Source: Paenibacillus jilunlii
GTDB taxonomy: Bacteria; Bacillota; Bacilli; Paenibacillales; Paenibacillaceae
Assembly: GCF_900102965.1 (NCBI RefSeq)
Contig: NZ_FNGM01000001.1
Coordinates: 726,294-790,293 of the forward strand
DNA length: 64,000 nucleotides
Reading direction: 5' to 3'
A program made the position numbers and the translations under genes. Below are positions 2,205-13,509 of the stretch, in pieces (within the stretch, counting starts at the first letter, position 1; every line of letters begins with the position of its first letter). A model generated the notes under the pieces. The model searched no databases. It saw only the letters and a program-made list of their open reading frames with translations, and was not told the DNA's origin.

Positions 2205-2257
2205 AAAGATAGATGAATGTATCCGTTACGGGGCACATCCAAGGAGGAAACAAGAAG

Positions 2258-3322
2258 ATGACGACCAACCAGACATCCCAGCTCTCCAGCCTGAAAAAAA
2301 GCATGGCTCCCTTTGAAAAAACAAACCAGCGTGCAAGCATTAGACAATTAATCAATACCCTCGTTCCGCTTGTGCTTCTGTGGACGGCTGCTTATTTCAG
2401 CCTGCAGGTATCCTATGGGCTTACGCTTCTATTCGCGGTCCCCGCGGCGGGGTTTGTGATCCGCACGTTTATTATTTTTCATGACTGCTGCCACGGTTCG
2501 TTCTTCAAAAACCGCAAAGCCAATGATATCATCGGCACTATCACGGGAGTCTTGACGCTTGTCCCATACCGCCAGTGGAAGCACAGCCATTCTATCCATC
2601 ATGCCGGGAGCAGCAATCTCGACAAGCGGGGAATCGGCGATATCTGGATTATGACCGTAGAAGAATATATAGCCGCGAAACCATTGAAACGCCTGTACTA
2701 CCGCATATACCGCAATCCGCTGATTATGTTCGGAGTCGGTCCCATCGCCGTTTTCCTGATTCAATACCGGTTCAATGCCAAAGGGGCAAGACGCAAGGAA
2801 CGGATGAATACTTACTTGACGAATGTGTCTATAGCGTTACTTTACAGTACACTGATCTGGGCGATGGGCTGGCAGGCTTTTCTGCTGGTGCAGCTTCCGG
2901 TCGTATTCGTCTCCGGCTTTCTCGGCATCTGGCTGTTCTATGTGCAGCATCAGTTCGAGGATTCCTACTTCGAGCATGAAGAGGAATGGAGTTATGTTTC
3001 AGCCGCGGTAGAAGGAAGCTCGTATTACAAGCTGCCCAAGCTGCTGCAATGGATTACCGGCAACATCGGCTTCCACCATGTCCATCATTTGAGCCCGAAG
3101 GTGCCGAACTATAATCTGGAGCTGGCACATAATGCATCTGAACCGCTGCAGCATGCAACGACCATTACCATCGGAACCAGCCTGAAGGCGCTGCATTTCC
3201 GCTTATGGGATGAAGCGAACAAGGGGTTCGTCGGCTTTAAGGAAATCAAGGCCAGAATGAAGCAGCCGAAGCCGGCAGCGGATGGTCTGAAGGTGATCAA
3301 ACCCGGATTCCAAAGCAAGTAA
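2258..3322 (+). CDS. des: Acyl-lipid fatty acid desaturase (Des family)
   Basis: This 354-residue membrane enzyme introduces a cis double bond into phospholipid acyl chains to restore fluidity after cooling. All three histidine boxes of the di-iron desaturases are visible: HDCCH near residue 75, HSHSIHH near residue 110 and HHVHH near residue 270, interleaved with hydrophobic segments. The start at 2258 follows AAGGAGG (2241-2247); an upstream in-frame ATG at 2213 lies almost on the predicted transcription start. The B. subtilis homologue is a delta-5 desaturase, but regioselectivity cannot be read from sequence. The DesR-like palindrome upstream and desKR downstream fit cold induction. Confidence 0.9.
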   Translation: MTTNQTSQLSSLKKSMAPFEKTNQRASIRQLINTLVPLVLLWTAAYFSLQVSYGLTLLFAVPAAGFVIRTFIIFHDCCHGSFFKNRKANDIIGTITGVLTLVPYRQWKHSHSIHHAGSSNLDKRGIGDIWIMTVEEYIAAKPLKRLYYRIYRNPLIMFGVGPIAVFLIQYRFNAKGARRKERMNTYLTNVSIALLYSTLIWAMGWQAFLLVQLPVVFVSGFLGIWLFYVQHQFEDSYFEHEEEWSYVSAAVEGSSYYKLPKLLQWITGNIGFHHVHHLSPKVPNYNLELAHNASEPLQHATTITIGTSLKALHFRLWDEANKGFVGFKEIKARMKQPKPAADGLKVIKPGFQSK

Positions 3323-3332
3323 TATAGGGTTG

Positions 3333-3386
3333 GAGAAAGAAGCAGCCGGTGAACGTCAATGCCGGCGCTGCTCTTTCTCTTTTTTT
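3333..3386 (+). terminator. Terminator after the desaturase gene
   Basis: GAGAAAGAAGCAGCCGG and the opposing CCGGCGCTGCTCTTTCTC form a long, slightly imperfect stem followed by a run of seven T residues. It separates des from desKR, which has its own weak promoter (TTGCGG at 3395-3400, TAAAAT at 3420-3425). Confidence 0.85.
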
Positions 3387-3461
3387 GCGGGATATTGCGG
3401 GAACCTGAAGGGTTTATGCTAAAATGGGGGTACAATCTTGCTGGCTAAAAGGATGGCTGAC

Positions 3462-4610
3462 ATGCAGAAGTGGCATCATATTTTTCACAAAAGTACGGGT
3501 CTCAGCCCTTATGTATGGGTTGTTTTTTACATTTTGCCGTTTTATTTCATCTTCCGTTCCGCCTCGGTCAACCAAAACCAGTGGGTCTATGGAATCGTTA
3601 TGGTTGCAGTGTTTTTTACCTGTTATGTCCTCTCGTTCAAATCCAAAGGCTGGGTGGTTTACTTCTGGACCAGTGTACAGATTCTTGTCTCGATCACAAT
3701 GACGCTGCTGTTCGGGTATATGTATTTTGCGTTGTTTATTGCATTTTTTATCGGAAATATTCAGAAAAGAGCCGGTTTTTTCACTCTGTATTCGATTCAT
3801 CTGCTGACGACCATTGCTGCGATCAACTATGAGATGATTACCGGAAACCGGGTCTTCATTTCGCAGCTTCCATTCGTGCTGGTGAGCATGATCGCTGTAG
3901 TGCTGCTGCCCGCGACCACCTACAACCGCAATAACCAGGACAAGCTGCAGGGGCAGCTGGAGGATGCCAACAAGCGGATCTCCGAGCTGGTCATAATGGA
4001 GGAGCGGCAGCGGATAGCACGGGATCTGCATGATACGCTGGGACAGAAGCTGTCGCTCATTGGCCTCAAAAGCGATCTGGCCGGCAAATTGATCCACAAA
4101 AATCCGGCGCAGGCTGTGATTGAAATTAACGATGTCCGGCAGACTGCCAGAAGTGCGCTCAAGGAAGTCAGAGAGATGGTTACGCAAATGCGCGGAATCC
4201 GTCTGGAGGATGAGCTGATCCGGATCCGGCAATTGCTGGAGGCGGCAGAGATTGAGTTCCAGCTGGAGGGCAGCCCGAAGCTTGTCAATACCTCGTTAAT
4301 CACAGAGAACGTTCTGAGCATGTGCCTGAAGGAGGCCGTTACCAATGTAGTGAAACACAGCGGAGCGACACTCTGCCAGGTGCGGATTGAACCATCGCGG
4401 ACGGATCTGCTGATCAAGGTCAAAGATAATGGTACCGGGATTGAGGGAAGCAGCCTGTATGACAAGGGGCACGGGCTGCAGGGGATGCGGGAACGGCTCG
4501 AATTCGTAAACGGCAGTATGGATGTCTTGCAGGATCAAGGAACAACGCTCATTATTAGGGTGCCAAATGTTTTTAAGCAGCCGGAACTGGAGGAGGTAAA
4601 GGGGCTATGA
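3462..4610 (+). CDS. desK: Membrane thermosensor histidine kinase DesK
   Basis: DesK detects increased lipid order at low temperature and phosphorylates DesR; at higher temperature it acts as a phosphatase. The N-terminal half has about five hydrophobic segments, then a linker helix, a DHp motif ERQRIARDLHDTLGQK with the phospho-accepting His near residue 190, and a HATPase_c domain with NVVKHS (N box) and GHGLQGMRERL. Identity with B. subtilis DesK is obvious by eye along the whole chain. The ATG at 3462 is preceded by AAAAGGATGG and gives an N-terminus of similar length; a TTG at 3438 behind GGGGG is the alternative. The 3-prime end overlaps desR by four bases. Confidence 0.92.
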   Translation: MQKWHHIFHKSTGLSPYVWVVFYILPFYFIFRSASVNQNQWVYGIVMVAVFFTCYVLSFKSKGWVVYFWTSVQILVSITMTLLFGYMYFALFIAFFIGNIQKRAGFFTLYSIHLLTTIAAINYEMITGNRVFISQLPFVLVSMIAVVLLPATTYNRNNQDKLQGQLEDANKRISELVIMEERQRIARDLHDTLGQKLSLIGLKSDLAGKLIHKNPAQAVIEINDVRQTARSALKEVREMVTQMRGIRLEDELIRIRQLLEAAEIEFQLEGSPKLVNTSLITENVLSMCLKEAVTNVVKHSGATLCQVRIEPSRTDLLIKVKDNGTGIEGSSLYDKGHGLQGMRERLEFVNGSMDVLQDQGTTLIIRVPNVFKQPELEEVKGL

Positions 4611-5209
4611 TTAATATTGTAATCGCTGAGGATCAGCGCATGCTGCTGGGGGCTCTCGCCTCCCTGCTCGACCTGGAGGATGACATGAAGGTTGTGGGCC
4701 GGGCGGGGAACGGGGAGGAGGCCGTCAGGCTGGTGCAGCAGCATCAGCCGGATATTTGCATCATGGATATTGAAATGCCGGCCATGAGCGGCCTCGAAGC
4801 GGCTGAAGCCCTGAAGGATTCAGACTGTAAAATCATGATTCTGACCACCTTCGCCCGGGCGGGTTATTTTGAGCGCGCCGTTAAAGCAGGAGTCGGTGCT
4901 TATCTGCTGAAAGACAGTCCGAGCGAGGAGCTTGCGCTCTCGATCCGCAGTGTGATGGCCGGCAAACGGCTCTATGCTCCAGAGCTGATGGATGAGGCTT
5001 ACAGCGGTGAAGCCAACCCCCTGACCCAGCGGGAGAAGGAAGTGCTGGGGCTGATCGCCGACGGTAAAAATACGAAAGAGATCGCCAGCCAGCTGTATAT
5101 CACAACCGGAACCGTACGCAACTATATTTCGGTTATTCTTGACAAGCTGGATGTCGGCAACCGGATAGAGGCCATCACCCGCTTTAAGGAGAAGGGCTGG
5201 TTTAAATAG
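4607..5209 (+). CDS. desR: Response regulator DesR
   Basis: This 200-residue NarL-family regulator has a receiver domain with the acidic pair ED at residues 8-9, phospho-acceptor Asp54 within CIMDIEMP, a conserved Lys in LLKDSPSEE, and a C-terminal GerE HTH (NPLTQREKEVLGLIADG, then GTVRNYISVILDKL). Phosphorylated DesR dimerises and activates the desaturase gene. Its ATG overlaps the desK stop (ATGA), so the two are translationally coupled. The likely target is the palindrome at 2136-2153. Confidence 0.93.
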   Translation: MINIVIAEDQRMLLGALASLLDLEDDMKVVGRAGNGEEAVRLVQQHQPDICIMDIEMPAMSGLEAAEALKDSDCKIMILTTFARAGYFERAVKAGVGAYLLKDSPSEELALSIRSVMAGKRLYAPELMDEAYSGEANPLTQREKEVLGLIADGKNTKEIASQLYITTGTVRNYISVILDKLDVGNRIEAITRFKEKGWFK

Positions 5210-5467: not shown

Positions 5468-6907
5468 TTGCCTGAACTTACAACATCTTATGTAGATTCA
5501 CTCGCACCCAATGCGGCTGCCATCAAGAATGGCCAGGGCCTGGTGCGTAAGAAGAGCTTTGTCAAGCTGCATACCTCTGAGAATGGAGAGCTGCTCTTTG
5601 GACAATGCGCCGGGAGCGGGAAAACCCCTTACGAGTGCTCCGTAGATTTTATTACACCGGATAATCCTGTGTTCCGCTGCACCTGCCCCAGCCGGCAATT
5701 TCCCTGCAAGCACGCATTAGGCCTGCTCTATGCTTACGTGGAAGGACAGCCTTTCACGCCTGCCCCTGTGCCGGAGGATATTTCCTCCAAGCGTGAAAAG
5801 GCGGAGAAACGGGAAGAAAACAAAGCCAAGCAAGCTGCCGAAGGCACGGAGAGCAAGCCCAAGAAGGTCAACAAATCTGCCTTGAAGAAAAAAATCAACG
5901 CACAGCTCGAAGGTCTGGACCTCCTGGAAAAGCTGGTGCTGTCTCTGATCCGCGGCGGCTTGTCCACCATCGACAGCAAAACGATTAAGACCGTTCAGGA
6001 GCATGTGAAGCAGCTGGGCAACTACTATTTATCGGGAGCGCAGACTGAGCTGCGCCGCTTCGCCCTGCTTCTGGGAAAGGGAGAAGACCGGGAAGAAAGC
6101 TATACATATGCCATGGAGCAGCTGACACGGCTTCATGCTTTTATTAAGAAAGCCCGGGTCTATTTGACCACAAGAGCCGGGGACCCCGAGCTTGCCCTCG
6201 ATCATGAATCCACTATCGACGAATGGCTGGGGCATGCCTGGCAGCTGTCTGAGCTGAAGGAATATAGCCTGGTCAAAGAATCCGTTGAACTTCTGCAGCT
6301 GGCATTTTACAGCTACGATGATCCGGCCCGTCAGGAGTACGTGGATCTTGGCTATTGGCTGGAGTTGGCAAGCGGCGAGGTTCACCGCACCGTAAGCTAC
6401 CGCCCTTACAAGGCCGCGAAGCTGATGCGGGAGGAGGACAGCTTTTTTGAGCTGGCACAGATTCCGCTGCTGTACACCTATCCCGGCGATATGAATGTCC
6501 GGGTGCGGTATGAAGAAATGATATCCCGGGCTGTTGAAGATAAAGACCTGGAGCGGGTTGCGGCAAGCGCAAGCCGTTCATATGGAGAAGCGCTTAAGAA
6601 GGTCAAAAATCAGTTGAAAAATCCGCTCAGCGATAAAACGCCTGTCATGCTGCTGCATGCGGCCAGCCTGGGAGTGACGGAGAACGGCCAGTATGTGATC
6701 ACTGATGATGCCGGAGTCCAATTGGTCCTGGGCGACATTCCTTCGCTGCCTCAGGGTACGCTTGAGCTGCTGCCGTTCCTGCCTGCCTCTGTGCTGAAGG
6801 ATTGCTGCGTGCTGGTGATGTTCGAGCATCTTCTGGATCAGGGGCGGCTGGTTGCCCAGCCTTTGACAATTATCCAGGGCGGAGCCATTACCCGGCTTCT
6901 GTACTAG
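5468..6907 (+). CDS. SWIM zinc finger protein, first gene of the MoxR-VWA operon
   Basis: This 479-residue protein opens a five-gene operon. A SWIM zinc finger is plain: Cys71-x-Cys73-x6-Cys80-x-His82 in the context CTCPSRQFPCKH. SWIM domains bind nucleic acid or protein. A highly charged Lys/Glu/Ala linker (about residues 110-150) follows, then a mostly helical region of no recognised fold. A TTG start at 5468 is chosen because GGGAGG lies just upstream (5453-5458); the longer GTG-started frame from 5432 has no ribosome site. SWIM proteins of this type are commonly found beside MoxR and VWA genes, and all five genes here are consecutive. Its exact role is unknown. Confidence 0.85.
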   Translation: MPELTTSYVDSLAPNAAAIKNGQGLVRKKSFVKLHTSENGELLFGQCAGSGKTPYECSVDFITPDNPVFRCTCPSRQFPCKHALGLLYAYVEGQPFTPAPVPEDISSKREKAEKREENKAKQAAEGTESKPKKVNKSALKKKINAQLEGLDLLEKLVLSLIRGGLSTIDSKTIKTVQEHVKQLGNYYLSGAQTELRRFALLLGKGEDREESYTYAMEQLTRLHAFIKKARVYLTTRAGDPELALDHESTIDEWLGHAWQLSELKEYSLVKESVELLQLAFYSYDDPARQEYVDLGYWLELASGEVHRTVSYRPYKAAKLMREEDSFFELAQIPLLYTYPGDMNVRVRYEEMISRAVEDKDLERVAASASRSYGEALKKVKNQLKNPLSDKTPVMLLHAASLGVTENGQYVITDDAGVQLVLGDIPSLPQGTLELLPFLPASVLKDCCVLVMFEHLLDQGRLVAQPLTIIQGGAITRLLY

Positions 6908-6955
6908 CATGCACATACGAATACGTTCTTATATATACCTATAGGGGGACAGCCC

Positions 6956-8809
6956 ATGAGTACAGCATTATTGCAAGAGCTTCATCAAGAAGTCCGAAGA
7001 CTATATATCGCCGGCAGTGACCTGGCCGCAGGAGATTTCCGCCTGAAACGGCTGCTGCCGCAGTTTCAGCAGCTTGGTGAGCGGGCGGCAGTCTTCAAAC
7101 GGCTCGGAGAAGGCATCACCTCTCTGGTGGAACCGGGTGCAGGTGACGGAGCACCTGCCGCAGTGCGGCTGCAGGAGCTGACGCTGCTATTGGAATCGGT
7201 GTTGTATACCCAAGGGGTCAGCGCACCTGATGAAGCTCCCGGTGAACTTCGCAGCCGAAACTTCACTCTCGACACCAGGCTCCCGTACCGGAAGCTGGCC
7301 GCTGTGCGGCAGGCCTTGACCACAACAGGCAGCGGCAGGTATGAGATTGTAATTGAAGCCTTTAAGGATGGCATGTTTCAGGACCTGCGCCTGCTTCCGC
7401 TGGCCATTGCAGCTTTGAATGATCCTTATTCGGAGATCGCCGAATTTGCCATGACCGCCATTCTTCCGTCCTACGGTCCTGCCATCACCGGTTACTTGAT
7501 CGAAACACTCAATCTGGCGGGCGGTAAAAGCGAAGTCCGCAAGCTGAAGGTTATCGCCAAGGCAGGCGGAACGGAAGTGCTCGAAGAGATCTTCAAGGCT
7601 GCTGAAGAGGGCAGCGACGATATCCGGGCAGCAGCGATCGAATGCCTCGGGGGGCATGACGCGTACCTCCCTGTCCTGCTGGAGTGGAGCAAAGACAAGA
7701 AAAAAGTCATCCGTGAAGCGGCATATAAAGCGCTGGCGACAGGCGGATCATCACAAGGCGAAGACCGGCTGTATGAAGCCTTTGCAGCGAAGAAGGACCG
7801 GGAGCTGGTGGCGGATGCTCTGGCATATAGTTCTTCTGCACCGCTTATGGAGAGGCTGTCCGCTCTATATATGCAGGAGCTTCGTGAAGCTCCGCAGAAA
7901 AATGAGGACAAGAAAAAGACGGAACAGGTGTGGAACAGTATCCGGCCGTTTACGACCGTGTTATCCGGGCAGCAGAATCCGCTGCTGGATGAGCTATACA
8001 GCTATGTGATCCAGGATCATGGGCGCTTTTCGTCCCTGGGCTTCACGACTGTAATGAATGAAGCGGCTTGGTACAAACAGAGAGCAGGTACGGAAGCAGC
8101 CTTTGAAGAGCTGCAGCACCTGGAAAAACTCGACTCCCGCTATTTTCCTCACTTATTCCGGGCAGCACAACAGCTGATGTCAGCGGAGGAGCTGTACAAG
8201 CAGTTTGGCGGTACGCTGATTAACAAGCTCAAAGCTGTTGTCACCAAGGATTCTGCGCAGCGTAATAAACTGCTTATGGATACGATCAAAGAGCAGGTTA
8301 TGAATGCAGAGGAGATATGGTATGACGCAGCCTGGGATCCGCAGAGGGACCGGCAGTATCGTGAAACGGCTATGCTTGCTCCTGATAAAATTGCAGCAGC
8401 CTGGGACCCGCGCTGGCTGGATTTGTTCATTCACAGGGATGTGCCGGAGCTGGTATGCGCCTTTGCCCGTCCGGACCACGCGGAATCCCGCCGCTATCTG
8501 CTGAACAAGCTGAGCGGGCAGAAGGAATTGCAGCGGATGCTGCGGAATCATGACGTTCTTCCGAACCTATTTACGGGGCTTGCGCGGTCGGGAATGCCGG
8601 ACCATGATCTGCATGAACTGCTGATATCCGTACTGGAGAATGGAAAGAGCTATCTTCCCTACAGATTTGATTATTTTCTGTTCCAGCTTATGCTGGGTTT
8701 TCCGGCAAGCTACCACAGCCGGCTGGAGGCCCTTGTTCCTAATCAAAGATATTACGAAAGCCGGGCTCAGCTGGAATATGTGATCCATCATCTTAAGGGT
8801 CAGGAATAA
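6956..8809 (+). CDS. HEAT-like helical repeat protein of the MoxR-VWA operon
   Basis: This 617-residue soluble protein is almost wholly alpha-helical. HEAT-like repeats can be seen around residues 140-300, for example helices ending in EIAEFAMTAI, DIRAAAIECLGG and VIREAAYKALA, each about 35-40 residues apart. HEAT repeats are scaffolds for protein-protein contacts. No catalytic motif was seen. The ATG follows AGGGGGAC and starts 48 bases after the SWIM gene; the MoxR gene begins 39 bases after its stop. It probably bridges the SWIM protein and the AAA+ ATPase, which is inference from gene order. Confidence 0.75.
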   Translation: MSTALLQELHQEVRRLYIAGSDLAAGDFRLKRLLPQFQQLGERAAVFKRLGEGITSLVEPGAGDGAPAAVRLQELTLLLESVLYTQGVSAPDEAPGELRSRNFTLDTRLPYRKLAAVRQALTTTGSGRYEIVIEAFKDGMFQDLRLLPLAIAALNDPYSEIAEFAMTAILPSYGPAITGYLIETLNLAGGKSEVRKLKVIAKAGGTEVLEEIFKAAEEGSDDIRAAAIECLGGHDAYLPVLLEWSKDKKKVIREAAYKALATGGSSQGEDRLYEAFAAKKDRELVADALAYSSSAPLMERLSALYMQELREAPQKNEDKKKTEQVWNSIRPFTTVLSGQQNPLLDELYSYVIQDHGRFSSLGFTTVMNEAAWYKQRAGTEAAFEELQHLEKLDSRYFPHLFRAAQQLMSAEELYKQFGGTLINKLKAVVTKDSAQRNKLLMDTIKEQVMNAEEIWYDAAWDPQRDRQYRETAMLAPDKIAAAWDPRWLDLFIHRDVPELVCAFARPDHAESRRYLLNKLSGQKELQRMLRNHDVLPNLFTGLARSGMPDHDLHELLISVLENGKSYLPYRFDYFLFQLMLGFPASYHSRLEALVPNQRYYESRAQLEYVIHHLKGQE

Positions 8810-8848
8810 ATATTAATGAAGAGTGATCTGTTCAAAGGAGAGATGTCC

Positions 8849-9952
8849 ATGTCAACGGAACAAGAACAGCTTAAGGATTATATGCGGCTGCCGGCAGAGG
8901 TATTGTATCAGGAAGAGCTGGAGGCGCTGCGCAAGGAGGACAAAGGAAATATCCCGGCTGGCTGGCAGATGTCTCCGCGTGCGGTGCTGACATTTATCGC
9001 AGGCGGCAAGGCTGGCAAAAAGGTGATTACGCCTAAATACATCGGCAACACGCGCCTGATCGAAATGGCGGTTGCTACGCTGGTCACGGACCGGGCGCTG
9101 CTGCTGATCGGCGAGCCGGGGACGGCCAAGTCCTGGCTGTCGGAGAATCTGGCTGCGGCGATTTACGGCAACTCGGGGCTGGTCGTCCAGGGAACTGCGG
9201 GCACCAGTGAAGAGCATGTGCGTTATTCCTGGAATTACGCCATGCTGCTGGCGAACGGGCCGACTCCTGAAGCGCTGGTCAAAAGCCCGATTATGAGGGC
9301 CATGGAGGACGGCGGAATCGCCCGGTTTGAAGAGATTTCACGCTGCGCCTCTGAAGTGCAGGATGCGCTGATCTCCATCCTGTCGGAGAAGACCATCTCC
9401 GTACCGGAGCTTGGCAAGGAGGCGGGAGCGCGCAAGGGCTTCTCCATCATCGCCACTGCCAATACCAGAGACCGCGGAGTCAATGAAATGTCGGCTGCGC
9501 TGAAGCGGCGCTTCAATATTATTGTGCTGCCAGCGCCGACCGATATCGAAACGGAACTCTCCATTGTGAAAAAACGGGTGGCAGAGATTGCATCGTCCTA
9601 TAATCTGGGGGCAGCCGTTCCGGCAGATGAAGCGCTGCTTAAGGTTGTGACCATCTTCCGCGAGCTGCGCAGCGGCATGACGCTGGACAAGAAGGAGAAG
9701 GTGAAAACTCCTGCAGGGGTTATCTCCACCGCCGAGGCCATCTCGCTGCTGACGAACAGCATGGCGCTAGCGGCCAGCTTCGGGGACGGCGAGCTGACGG
9801 ACCGTGACCTTGCCGCCGGGCTTCAAGGGGCAGTTGTCAAGGATGATGACAAGGATAAGCTGGTCTGGAAGGAATATCTGGATAATGTGATGAAGAAAAA
9901 AGGAGCGGAATGGCGCGGTCTCTACCAGGCCTGTAAGGAGATGAACGAGTGA
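8849..9952 (+). CDS. MoxR-family AAA+ ATPase
   Basis: A 367-residue AAA+ ATPase. Walker A is GEPGTAKS (residues 88-95), Walker B is ARFEEISRC, sensor 1 is IIATANTRDRG, and the arginine-finger region is SAALKRRFN. MoxR ATPases work as hexameric chaperones that act with VWA-domain partners, often inserting metal or remodelling a target complex. The start at 8849 follows AAAGGAGAG; an upstream in-frame ATG at 8816 would add eleven residues. The 3-prime end overlaps the DUF5682-like gene by four bases, so the two are coupled. Its VWA partner is the last gene of the operon. Confidence 0.9.
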   Translation: MSTEQEQLKDYMRLPAEVLYQEELEALRKEDKGNIPAGWQMSPRAVLTFIAGGKAGKKVITPKYIGNTRLIEMAVATLVTDRALLLIGEPGTAKSWLSENLAAAIYGNSGLVVQGTAGTSEEHVRYSWNYAMLLANGPTPEALVKSPIMRAMEDGGIARFEEISRCASEVQDALISILSEKTISVPELGKEAGARKGFSIIATANTRDRGVNEMSAALKRRFNIIVLPAPTDIETELSIVKKRVAEIASSYNLGAAVPADEALLKVVTIFRELRSGMTLDKKEKVKTPAGVISTAEAISLLTNSMALAASFGDGELTDRDLAAGLQGAVVKDDDKDKLVWKEYLDNVMKKKGAEWRGLYQACKEMNE

Positions 9953-12297
9953 ACGCGACTGCTGAAGCCGGGGTACATATTTTCGGAGTGCGGCACCTGT
10001 CTCCGGGCGGCGCGAAGCATCTGCTGGAATACCTGAATGAGCTTCAGCCGACGGCGGTGCTGATCGAAGGCCCAAGCGATGCCACGGATGAAATCCGCCA
10101 TTTGACACATCGCTCTACGCAACCTCCGGTGGCCATCTTGGCTTTTACGGAGGATTTGCCGGTACGTACTGCCCTGTGGCCGTTAGCGGTCTATTCACCG
10201 GAATACCAGGGCATGAAATGGGCCAGGGACAATGGGGCGGAGGCGGCGTTTATTGATCTTCCCTCCTCGGTCATTTTAAGCCTGCAGGATGTTATGCGCC
10301 GGGAAGGCACCTCCGGCAGGGGGGAAGTGAAGCCGGAAGCGGATGAGGCGGGCGAGCCGTCCACAGAAGAGGCAGAGCAGCAGGAATCGGTGTACAGCCG
10401 GATTGCCCGGCTTGCCGGTGAGCATGACTATGATATGTATTGGGAACGCAATTACGAGCATAACGCAAATGCCGGAGCGTACCGTGCGGCCATTCTTTCG
10501 TTCTCCGCCGAAATGCGCCTGCTCTCCGAGAGCAGGGAGCAGCTGGAGCAGCCGAAGGAGCATGCGTACAACACCCTGCGCGAGGCGTATATGCGGCGGC
10601 AGATCCGGAAGACAATCGCAGCCGGACACGCACCGGACAAAATCGTGGTTATCTGTGGCGCGTACCATGCCTCAGCGCTTGCCGATCTGTCGGATGTCCT
10701 GGCTGACAAGGAGCTGGCGGGTCTGCCCTCGCGCAGCACCAAGCTGACGCTGATGCCGTATTCCTACTACAAGCTCTCTACCATGTCAGGTTATGGGGCG
10801 GGGAATGGAGCCCCGCACTACTTTGAGATGATGTGGGAGACGATGGCCTCCGGAAGGCCGGAGGAGCTGGCACATCTCTATCTGTCTACAGTGGCGGGCT
10901 ATCTGCGCAGCAGCGGGACACACCGCTCTACCGCCGAGGTGATCGAGGCGGTGCGGCTGGCGGAGTCGCTGGCTGCACTGCATGGTGGAAGCGCGCCTAC
11001 CCTGCGCGATTTGCGGGATGCCGCGCAGACGCTGCTGGGCCACGGCGATTTGTCCGTGATCGCCGACGCCCTGGTGCGGGTGGATGTGGGGACGGCCATC
11101 GGCCATCTGGCCGATGGCGTCAGCCAGACACCCATACAGGATGATCTGAACCGGCTGCTCAAGCGGTATAAGCTGGAGAAGTATAAATCGACCGTAGCCA
11201 GCGAGCTGCCGCTCGATCTTCGCGAGAACCGCAGAGTGTCCAGCGAGGAAGCTGCCTATCTGGATCTGCACCGGTCGATATTGTTCCACAGGCTGAAGCT
11301 GCTGGGCATTACTTTTGCCAAGAACAGGCCCAGTGGACAAGACGCGGCGACCTGGGCGGAATACTGGATCATCCAGTGGTCGCCGGAGGTGGAAATCCAG
11401 GTCGTCGAATCGACCCTGCTCGGGGAGACGATTGAAGTAGCGGCTGCATATATGCTGCGTGAGAAGCTGCAGGCCTGCCGTTCCATCGCAGAGGCCTCGC
11501 TGCTCATCCGGGTCGCCTGCGAGTGCGGAATGACGGCACAGATGGAGGAGGCCAGCCGGGTGCTGCAGGGGCTGGCGGTGGACAGCCGCGATGTAGTCGG
11601 CATTGCCGCTGCTGCCCGTGAGCTGGCAACCATCATCGGCTTCGGTGACATCCGCAAGGTGGACACCGTGCCGCTCACGCCGCTGCTGGAAGAGCTGTTC
11701 CGGCGCGGCTGCCTGTTCCTGCCGGATGCCAGCGGCTGCAATGACGAGGCCGCAGGCCAGATGATTGTGGCGATGAATGAGCTGAACGCCATTTCGCTGG
11801 ACCACAGCGAAACGGTAGACGAAGCACTGTGGCTGCAGGAACTGCTGCATTTGTCAGAGCGGGATGACCGCAATCCGCGGTTGTCCGGCTTCGCCTGTGC
11901 CATTCTGATGGAGCGTGGAGCGGTCTCTGCTGAGGAGGTTGCATCCGAAGTTTCGCGCCGTTTGTCTCCCGGCATCCCGGCCGATCTCGGGGCGGGCTGG
12001 TTTGAAGGCCTGTCGATGCGCAACCGGTATGGACTGCTGTCCAGAATGAGCCTCTGGGAGCAGCTTAACGATTATATCAATGCGCTTGAGGATGATGAAT
12101 TCAAGCGGGCGCTGGTGTTTCTGCGCCGGGCGTTCAGCACCTTCTCGCCAAGAGAGAAAACGATGATCTCCGAGCTGCTCGGTGAGCTGTGGGGTGTAGA
12201 TAGTGAGCAGGCGGCAGAGATCCTTACCGGAGAACTGAAGGAGGATGAAGCCAAAATGCTGGATGATTTGAATGATTTTGACTTCGGGGATTTATAG
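9949..12297 (+). CDS. DUF5682-like protein of the MoxR-VWA operon
   Basis: A 782-residue protein matching what I know of the DUF5682 family, which occurs beside MoxR and VWA genes. The N-terminal third has HIFGVRHLSPGGAKHL (about residues 9-24), AVLIEGPSDA (near 36-45) and VVICGAYHASAL (near 230). The spaced HxxGxRH, Glu and GxYH signatures recall the Tiki/TraB/ChaN/erythromycin-esterase superfamily, so a metal-dependent hydrolase-like fold is my inference. Residues 125-145 are an acidic, low-complexity insert. The C-terminal two thirds are helical, without a recognised domain. A GTG start overlaps the MoxR stop (GTGA), behind AAGGAG. It ends directly before the VWA gene. Confidence 0.75.
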   Translation: MNATAEAGVHIFGVRHLSPGGAKHLLEYLNELQPTAVLIEGPSDATDEIRHLTHRSTQPPVAILAFTEDLPVRTALWPLAVYSPEYQGMKWARDNGAEAAFIDLPSSVILSLQDVMRREGTSGRGEVKPEADEAGEPSTEEAEQQESVYSRIARLAGEHDYDMYWERNYEHNANAGAYRAAILSFSAEMRLLSESREQLEQPKEHAYNTLREAYMRRQIRKTIAAGHAPDKIVVICGAYHASALADLSDVLADKELAGLPSRSTKLTLMPYSYYKLSTMSGYGAGNGAPHYFEMMWETMASGRPEELAHLYLSTVAGYLRSSGTHRSTAEVIEAVRLAESLAALHGGSAPTLRDLRDAAQTLLGHGDLSVIADALVRVDVGTAIGHLADGVSQTPIQDDLNRLLKRYKLEKYKSTVASELPLDLRENRRVSSEEAAYLDLHRSILFHRLKLLGITFAKNRPSGQDAATWAEYWIIQWSPEVEIQVVESTLLGETIEVAAAYMLREKLQACRSIAEASLLIRVACECGMTAQMEEASRVLQGLAVDSRDVVGIAAAARELATIIGFGDIRKVDTVPLTPLLEELFRRGCLFLPDASGCNDEAAGQMIVAMNELNAISLDHSETVDEALWLQELLHLSERDDRNPRLSGFACAILMERGAVSAEEVASEVSRRLSPGIPADLGAGWFEGLSMRNRYGLLSRMSLWEQLNDYINALEDDEFKRALVFLRRAFSTFSPREKTMISELLGELWGVDSEQAAEILTGELKEDEAKMLDDLNDFDFGDL

Positions 12298-13509
12298 ATG
12301 ATGAACGACAACAAGCAAGAAAGCACAGTGACCCGTTGGCGGCTGATTCTGGGCCAGGAAGCCGAAGCTTCACTAGCAGGTTATGGTGAAGGCGGCCAGC
12401 TCCATCTGACTGAAGAGGAAATGATCATGGATTCAGCGCTTGCCGCCATCTATGATGAGACAGGCGGGGGAAGCAGCTCCGGCAATTCTCCCGGCGGCAG
12501 AGGCAAAGGGGCAGGGACCGGCCATGCTGCCCTGCATCTCTCCAAATGGCTGGGCGATGTGCGCAGTTATTTCCCTGAAGATGTGGTCTCGATCATCCAG
12601 AGCGATGCCATGGAACGCCGGGGCTGGAAGCAGCTGCTGTTCGAGCCGGAGCTGCTGGCGGCGGTGAAGCCGGATATCCAGCTGGTAGGCACACTTTTGT
12701 CACTCAAGGGCAAAATCCCGGAGAAGACCAAAGACACCGCAAGAATGCTGGTCAAGGCGCTGGTGGATGACCTGGTCAAGCTGCTGGAGACCGATATCCG
12801 CCGTGCTGTTACCGGAGCGCTGAACAAGCGGCAGCATTCTCCGCTGCCCTCGCTCAGCGGGCTGGACTGGAAGCTGACCATCCAGCGGAATCTCAAGCAT
12901 TACAATCAGGAGCGGCGGAAGATTATCCCCGAACGCTTTTATTATTTTGACCGGGCGCGCCGCAGCAAGGAATGGACCGTTATTGTCGATATTGACCAGA
13001 GCGGTTCGATGGCCAGCTCGATTATCTGGGCTTCGGTCATCGGGTCCATCTTCGCCAGCATTCCGGCGCTGAATACCCGTGTAGTGGTCTTCGATACCGA
13101 AGTAGTGGATTTGACTGAACAGTGTGCGAATGATCCGGTGGATATGCTTTTCGGGATTCAGCTTGGCGGGGGAACGGACATCCACAAATCGGTGAAATAC
13201 TGCGAGCAGTTCATTGAAGAACCGAAGAAGACGTTGTTCATTATCGTCTCGGATCTGTATGAGAACGGCAACCAGGCCGGGCTGGTCCGGCGGATGCGCG
13301 AACTGCGCGAATCGGGTGTCCGCACGATGACGCTGCTGGCGCTGTCGGATGAAGGGAAGCCCTCCTATGATGAGCGTCTGGCCGGACAGCTGTCCCGTGA
13401 CGGCACACCATGCTTCGCCTGTACGCCGGCCCTGCTGCCCGTGCTTGTAGAAGGGGCGCTCAAAGGCCAGGATCTCGGCGGGCTGGCCAAACGTCTCGGG
13501 GCTTCATGA
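12298..13509 (+). CDS. VWA-domain (CoxE-like) protein, partner of the MoxR ATPase
   Basis: This 403-residue protein has a disordered Gly/Ser-rich segment near residues 55-75, a helical middle, and a C-terminal von Willebrand factor A domain. The metal-ion-dependent adhesion site is intact: IDQSGSM (DxSxS, near residue 234), the Thr in GGGTDIHKS, and the Asp in IVSDLYENG. There is no signal peptide, so it is cytosolic. VWA proteins of this kind bind MoxR ATPases and recruit their substrates. The ATG (12298, or 12301) begins on the stop of the DUF5682-like gene, implying strict co-expression. No terminator follows; the next 45 bases carry a new promoter. Confidence 0.87.
   Translation: MMNDNKQESTVTRWRLILGQEAEASLAGYGEGGQLHLTEEEMIMDSALAAIYDETGGGSSSGNSPGGRGKGAGTGHAALHLSKWLGDVRSYFPEDVVSIIQSDAMERRGWKQLLFEPELLAAVKPDIQLVGTLLSLKGKIPEKTKDTARMLVKALVDDLVKLLETDIRRAVTGALNKRQHSPLPSLSGLDWKLTIQRNLKHYNQERRKIIPERFYYFDRARRSKEWTVIVDIDQSGSMASSIIWASVIGSIFASIPALNTRVVVFDTEVVDLTEQCANDPVDMLFGIQLGGGTDIHKSVKYCEQFIEEPKKTLFIIVSDLYENGNQAGLVRRMRELRESGVRTMTLLALSDEGKPSYDERLAGQLSRDGTPCFACTPALLPVLVEGALKGQDLGGLAKRLGAS

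Follow-up and report, generated by a model that had tools for sequence, protein, structure and literature searches.

Gene organization of the locus

The window analysed here is a 64,000-nucleotide stretch of the Paenibacillus jilunlii genome, covering positions 726294–790293 of its contig. At 5468–13509 on its forward strand lie five co-directional and closely packed genes that encode, in this order, a SWIM zinc-finger protein, a HEAT-repeat protein, a MoxR AAA+ ATPase, a DUF5682 protein, and a CoxE-type VWA protein. We describe the conservation of this gene set, the predicted TIKI-type hydrolase fold of its DUF5682 protein, and its possible role as a MoxR/VWA-driven hydrolase. The host genome (7.03 Mb) contains a single DUF5682 gene. 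The SWIM and HEAT genes are separated by 48 bp and the HEAT and MoxR genes by 6 bp, the MoxR and DUF5682 genes overlap by 4 bp, and the distance between the DUF5682 and VWA genes is 0 bp. These open reading frames and junctions confirm the original prediction, made from the sequence alone, of five tightly coupled genes.

The SWIM gene (5468..6907, +; Pfam PF04434, E = 9e-6) encodes 479 amino acids from a TTG start that is consistent with the alignment of its homologues. Its finger, CxCx6CxH (5678..5713), consists of Cys71, Cys73, Cys80, and His82, the residues originally named, and all four are identical in 39 of 39 aligned rows. The HEAT-repeat scaffold (6956..8809, +; 617 amino acids; Pfam PF13646 and PF02985) was recognized with an E-value of 3.4e-8 for HEAT_2, as had been proposed, and has homologues at the equivalent position in other loci.

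The MoxR protein (8816..9952, +; 378 amino acids; AAA_5, E = 2.3e-37) shares 43% identity over 370 columns with Escherichia coli YehL and carries Walker A (GEPGTAKS, 9110..9133), the Walker B region (IARFEEISR, 9317..9343), sensor 1, and an arginine finger, features that fit the YehL subfamily. In an alignment of 83 rows including the window, from which rows of <250 or >520 amino acids were left out, Gly99 and Lys105 of Walker A, Glu172 and Glu173 of Walker B, the sensor-1 residue Asn216, and Arg231/Arg232 are invariant (83/83), so the Walker motifs are intact, as first read. The VWA protein (12298..13509, +; 403 amino acids; 32% identity to E. coli YehP) matches the VWA_CoxE profile with an E-value of 6.6e-47. 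Its predicted metal ion-dependent adhesion site (MIDAS) is complete, in agreement with the earlier reading, and comprises the DxSxS motif (DQSGS, residues 233–237, 12994..13008), Thr293 (13174..13176), and Asp319 (13252..13254); the five MIDAS residues are retained in 76–78 of 78 rows. Sequence searches of PDB returned midasin only for the MoxR protein and no match at E = 0.01 for the VWA protein.

Conservation and classes of the operon

Relatives were collected from genome contigs by a pattern containing GxRHxxP, and the best 80 of at least 571 loci (numbered with the prefix L) were retained, of which 59 have flanks long enough to be judged and 21 were set aside for short flanks. SWIM, HEAT or DUF5691, MoxR, DUF5682, and VWA genes are all present in 53 of the 59 loci, and 51 of these 53 keep the order of the window; in some of the 53, the SWIM or HEAT gene is doubled or DUF4132 is present in addition. 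This neighbourhood check bears out the claim of one conserved gene set. The remaining six loci (L035, L093, L095, L097, L099, and L101) miss a part and count as exceptions to it. No SWIM gene was detected in L093, though Pfam finds a DUF5691 gene there, neither HEAT nor DUF5691 was detected in L095, L097, and L099, L101 contains DUF5682 alone, and L035 contains a DUF5682–VWA fusion without SWIM or HEAT. Among the loci set aside, a Planctomycete locus (L084) shows no SWIM or HEAT gene in ∼7 kb upstream.

Four contigs of metagenome-assembled genomes (L094, L101, L102, and L103) contain DUF5682 without operon neighbours, and those of L094 and L103 begin near the DUF5682 gene. All four genomes hold homologues elsewhere of VWA (46–47% identity), MoxR (54–57%; one frame, in genome G503, has a stop), and SWIM (E = 1e-54 or better), and the parts are thus retained even where they are scattered. 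No MoxR, DUF5682, or SWIM gene lies within ∼1.5 kb of the VWA genes in these four genomes. Genes lying apart with no co-occurrence were thus not encountered, even in the genomes in which DUF5682 is isolated.

In Paenibacillaceae, a DUF5682 match was found in 156 of 295 genomes. After 13 genomes with weak SWIM matches only (E = 3e-7 to 9.5e-4) had been dropped, all 113 genomes with a window-like DUF5682 (E = 1.2e-115 or better) were found to have a SWIM gene; the two genes lie within 14 kb on one contig in 112 of them, and the last pair is located at two contig ends. Four further genomes of the family have a SWIM gene, but their DUF5682 match is weaker or broken. DUF5682 is not universal: it is present in 2 of 14 well-known control genomes (E. 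coli and Deinobacterium chartae) and in 21 of 200 sampled Lachnospiraceae.

DUF5682–VWA fusions occur in two loci, one from Streptomyces (L006) and one from a Paenibacillus (L035). In the latter, a single DUF5682–VWA frame of 1187 amino acids (L035:9908–13471) is observed and neither SWIM nor HEAT is found nearby; this fusion may represent a local deletion, as the frame lacks the end of DUF5682 and the beginning of VWA.

Three classes of the operon were distinguished. Class A1, with HEAT, is found in Bacillota and Fusobacterium; class A2, with DUF5691, in Bacteroidota, Cyanobacteria, Chloroflexota, Deinococcota, Proteobacteria, and one Acidobacterium; and class B, with DUF4132, in E. coli, Iodobacter, Streptomyces, and Allorhizobium, as well as in two Paenibacillaceae genomes (L117 and L118). 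One genome (G195) carries both classes. Where identified, the SWIM gene of class B is located at or near the cluster end, and none was identified in Streptomyces. A DUF4132 gene adjoins the class A2 operons of L092, L096, and L105. MoxR, DUF5682, VWA, and SWIM are the parts common to all three classes. The possibility that HEAT is a diverged DUF5691 or DUF4132 was not supported by hhalign, with probabilities of 25.8 and 0.4, respectively, and homology among the three scaffolds is accordingly not established. In a quick tree of 86 DUF5682 rows, which carries a long-branch warning, A1, A2, and B are separate and the rows group mostly by host phylum. On an Allorhizobium plasmid, an annotated adenylosuccinate synthetase gene (L011:7394–8572) closely precedes the class B operon.

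The E. coli counterpart is yehLMPQ, in which the MoxR (YehL), DUF5682 (YehM, 25% identity), and VWA (YehP) genes are arranged in the matching relative order and are accompanied by a gene for a SWIM protein, YehQ. The window operon shares with it the MoxR–DUF5682–VWA core and a SWIM gene, but yehQ is placed last instead of first and its product matches the window SWIM protein only at chance level (BLAST, E = 0.30). In addition, E. coli has DUF4132 genes (yehI) upstream in place of the HEAT gene of the window. The yehM region was matched in 5284 of 5426 complete E. coli genomes, in 5166 of them over ≥80% of the query, and the one E. coli locus that was read sits between metG and btsRS. The yeh region is dispensable in the laboratory, since the genome-reduced strain DGF-298 is without it (PMC10652928).

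Other reports mention the yeh genes singly: yehM mutations are listed in a copper-evolution study (PMC12409786), a yehQ deletion strain was built in a butanol-tolerance study (PMC6442406), yehM is listed with biofilm genes in work on expression in colonic fluid (PMC12114223), and yehP is a CRP-SELEX (systematic evolution of ligands by exponential enrichment) target (PMC3105977). No function for the yeh genes was found among the literature matches listed, and the term 'DUF5682' is absent from the literature searched, outside which preprints and most subscription journals fall.

Predicted fold and conserved residues of the DUF5682 protein

The DUF5682 gene (9949..12297, +; Pfam E = 1.4e-152) encodes a protein of 782 amino acids, for which the original prediction had proposed a likeness to Tiki, TraB, or esterases, to be examined by structure prediction. 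AlphaFold models were obtained for the whole protein, with a mean predicted local distance difference test (pLDDT) score of 90.5 and a predicted template modelling (pTM) score of 0.83, and for residues 8–300 (9970..10848; pLDDT 87.0, pTM 0.84), where model residues 270–282 form a weak stretch. The predicted architecture consists of an N-terminal domain like those of the TIKI/Ere/ChaN group, with the alpha/beta core of the TIKI fold, and a long, mostly helical C-terminal part that matches helical-repeat proteins in the Foldseek search of the whole protein.

Re-examination by VIA-align of the Foldseek candidates for the N-domain model gave 15 top rows with Z-scores of 11.3–6.4, the next row being at 4.8. 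Twelve of the 15 belong to the TIKI/Ere/ChaN group, i.e. ChaN (9.4), HopBA1 (8.6), EreC (7.3 and 6.8), two succinoglycan-biosynthesis proteins (7.0 and 6.8), one of which is titled BcR135, three PMT chains (6.8–6.7), and three chains with RRSP numbering (6.6–6.4), one of which is titled RRSP; the other three are chains of a Tetrahymena complex IV subunit. ChaN, HopBA1, BcR135, and PMT have been placed in one fold group with RRSP (PMC6254334) or with EreC (PMC7979712). The Pfam ChaN profile matches the DUF5682 protein with an E-value of 0.042, which is under the Pfam cut-off and provides a weak independent hint. Similarity to a hydrolase fold is thus present in the predicted N-terminal domain, and the earlier guess of a hydrolase is strengthened.

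Four residues of this domain, His16 (9994..9996), Glu40 (10066..10068), Arg211 (10579..10581), and His240 (10666..10668), are invariant in 72 of 72 DUF5682 rows; this alignment covers 62 of the 80 loci and omits rows that were fused, cut, or nearly duplicate. Because the search pattern held GxRHxxP, the invariance of Arg15, His16, and Pro19 among the 80 loci is partly built in, but the four residues are also invariant in 13 of 13 rows chosen without the motif pattern. In the model, His16 comes right after strand 1, Glu40 lies on strand 2, and His240 follows the later core strand 232–237, an arrangement in which these three are predicted to be catalytic. Of the signatures first pointed out (HxxGxRH, Glu, and GxYH), GxRH, Glu, and GxxH proved to be conserved, and the first histidine of HxxGxRH (His10) did not.

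The key residues of EreC are H50/E78/R261/H289 (PMC7979712) and those of RRSP are H3902/E3930/R4001/H4030 (PMC6254334). By order, spacing, and topology, the His–Glu–Arg–His set of DUF5682 would fit both, with Arg211 as the candidate counterpart of EreC Arg261 and RRSP Arg4001. The spacing of Arg211 and His240 is 29 residues, compared with 29 in RRSP and 28 in EreC, and that of His16 and Glu40 is 24, compared with 28 in both. EreC R261 has been proposed to stabilize the transition state (PMC7979712), and RRSP R4001 to bind the substrate, its loss abolishing activity (PMC6254334).

Several results weigh against a hydrolase of this type. The second glutamate located two or three residues ahead of the first histidine in the group (RRSP E3900 and EreC E47) is absent from DUF5682, which has Gly13 and Val14 there, although another acidic residue could replace it. 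Foldseek searches gave no significant similarity, neither for the N-domain model (best E = 0.15) nor for the whole model against PDB, where helical-repeat proteins were returned with a best E-value of 0.033 and none at 0.001; PDB sequence searches with the protein and with an N-domain profile gave no useful match. The majority of the 15 VIA-align rows have Z-scores of <8, a level flagged as possibly reflecting a common arrangement, and ChaN and PMT show that a TIKI-type fold without hydrolase activity is possible (PMC6254334, PMC7979712). DUF5682 further differs from the group in its long helical C-terminal part and in its usual MoxR and VWA neighbours.

Possible function and alternative explanations

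We favour, with a probability of roughly 0.4, the interpretation that the operon encodes a MoxR/VWA-driven TIKI-type hydrolase that acts in protein processing, maintenance, or quality control, and not in phage defence. The five proteins, taken to be cytoplasmic, would constitute one machine, in which a MoxR ring with a docked VWA protein would remodel DUF5682 or a substrate bound to it, the TIKI-type site of DUF5682 would then hydrolyse a peptide bond, or an ester or amide, of the substrate, and the SWIM and HEAT proteins would recruit or hold that substrate. It is plausible that DUF5682 is the catalytic part and the MoxR/VWA pair its control, and coupling between DUF5682 and VWA is favoured by the fusions in L006 and L035. 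A precedent is provided by NorQD, in which a finger of the VWA protein enters the MoxR pore, the target is opened by the twisting of a linker, and activity depends on MIDAS residues (PMC13036017, PMC9976466); by analogy, MoxR/VWA here would act on DUF5682 or its substrate as NorQD does on its target. NorQ/NorD and RavA/ViaA likewise combine a MoxR AAA+ protein with a MIDAS-bearing VWA partner, but the window pair is encoded together with proteins of the TIKI-like and SWIM types, and YehL has been assigned to a separate MoxR subfamily, distinct from those of RavA and CGN (PMC3893208).

As far as we have seen, the gene set is a known but apparently uncharacterized operon, and the link of MoxR/VWA to a TIKI-type fold is the new element. 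Among the literature matches listed, no paper joins MoxR or VWA with TIKI or erythromycin esterase, although a TIKI assignment may exist elsewhere, and no job is assigned to the YehL branch of MoxR despite its near-universal presence in E. coli. By connecting this orphan operon to a TIKI-type hydrolase and a specified set of residues, the link makes it directly testable; if true, MoxR and VWA would here form a machine for driving a hydrolase. A bolder version, which we consider doubtful as a whole, is an ATP-gated intracellular protease of a new class, in which DUF5682/YehM would be a TIKI-fold peptidase fed or switched by the MoxR ring and VWA adaptor, and SWIM and HEAT, DUF5691, or DUF4132 proteins would select the substrates, beside Clp and Hsp33 quality control; such a class would span many phyla and include nearly all E. 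coli.

A hint of protein quality control, albeit a weak one, comes from the genes that adjoin the operon in Lachnospiraceae. In one clade, clpS-clpA-aat directly follows the VWA gene, i.e. in L051 (13461–16782; checked by Pfam), L053 (13440–16843), L056 (8995–12280), and L086 (13619–16943), with gaps of 17, 4, 6, and 60 bp, respectively, and no ClpS other than the operon-linked one was found in the three genomes that were searched (L051, L053, and L086). In a second branch, hsp33 directly follows VWA (L050:13542–14417, L052:13508–14416, and L062:13675–14565). The 200 sampled Lachnospiraceae include 17 genomes with ClpS and 6 with both ClpS and DUF5682, compared with 1.8 expected (P = 0.004, or 0.013 without the seed genome), by a statistic that ignores kinship. 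However, the two genes are together in only one of the six genomes, the seed, and on different draft contigs in the other five, and the links to ClpS and Hsp33 are each limited to a single clade, a different one in each case, the near relatives L085, L057, and L060 being without them. Since only two lineages are involved, the adjacency is suggestive only, and the quality-control role that the original prediction had allowed for receives weak backing from the neighbourhood.

Among the alternatives, an unlikely one that nevertheless fits several observations is a maturation machine like NorQ/NorD or CoxD/CoxE, in which MoxR and VWA would insert a metal or cofactor and DUF5682 would be the client or a ChaN-like ligand carrier with no working hydrolase site. 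The window VWA is of the CoxE type, NorQD opens its target for metal insertion (PMC13036017, PMC9976466), ChaN, the best named fold match, binds haem (PMC7979712), Tiki itself is metal-dependent (PMC6254334), and the yehM mutations of the copper-evolution study would also be compatible with it. On the other hand, the conserved residues of DUF5682 follow EreC and RRSP, both of which are reported to be metal-independent (PMC6254334, PMC7979712), and no respiratory or molybdo-enzyme family appears among the matches listed (25 of 132 Pfam families) for 98 neighbouring proteins. These proteins are the nearest of ≥130 amino acids on either side of 49 loci (both downstream in L104), with a maximum of 700 or 900 amino acids, so that they are not always the true first neighbours; L033, L053, L107, and L108 were excluded manually.

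A role in conflict with phages, with DUF5682 as the effector, MoxR/VWA as the switch, and SWIM/HEAT as the sensor, is improbable. MoxR-vWA ternary conflict systems with VMAP have been described (PMC7159879) and likewise use MoxR and VWA as an ATP-driven core, the window MoxR scores 28.2 bits against bpMoxR, borderline to the cut-off of 27, and effectors with a TIKI fold exist (PMC6254334). But no VMAP or effector-associated domain was found in the five proteins by Pfam at E-values up to 1, and the gene content is conserved instead of variable. PADLOC gave only a marginal match to mad8 for the five proteins (MoxR, E = 0.0027) and, for the 98 flanking proteins, no family with more than four matches at E = 1e-10 (mad3 four, AriA two, the others listed one; 25 of 38 families listed), and thus neither a match to known anti-phage defence nor a defence-island setting was found.

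In favour of such a role, 36 records in the plasmid collection (4 typed conjugative and 5 mobilizable) hold copies, although some of these records are whole chromosomes, and some plasmid copies (L004, L007, and L010) lie near recombinase, transposase, or restriction genes. No relative was found in viral contigs with the three patterns searched. A phage-collection record with MoxR–DUF5682–VWA (MT835988.1, L008) falls among Lachnospiraceae in the tree; it was rejected as a phage-borne copy and is probably bacterial DNA. The negative search of viral contigs, together with the near-universal presence in E. coli, the housekeeping flanks, and the mostly phylum-wise tree, argues against the defence role that had been suggested.

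SWIM fingers bind nucleic acids or proteins, and the operon might alternatively encode a machine for repair or regulation linked to DNA or RNA, with nucleic acid bound by the SWIM protein. Positive evidence for a repair role is scant, and we regard it as improbable too: a Deinococcus radiodurans operon with a DUF4132 gene, the gene that replaces HEAT in class B, is upregulated on DdrO depletion (PMC8533742), but the window operon is without DUF4132, and no recurring nuclease, helicase, or polymerase appears among the listed Pfam matches of the neighbours, with TatD in one. An unannotated cluster ∼10 kb off in three loci resembles a DNA polymerase III alpha gene by eye.

The flanks of the window operon are ordinary housekeeping-type genes. 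Those upstream encode an MFS transporter, a fatty-acid desaturase, a DesK-type kinase, and a response regulator, and those downstream a semialdehyde dehydrogenase and a pseudouridine synthase. Promoter and terminator scans of the operon gave nothing above the level of shuffled sequence. Among the best 80 of at least 571 loci, the closest named relative is Paenibacillus phytohabitans (85% in the top DUF5682 segment), and synteny of the flanking genes is confined to this species and Paenibacillus agri. The desaturase, kinase, and response regulator genes occupy 2213–5209, directly upstream of the operon.

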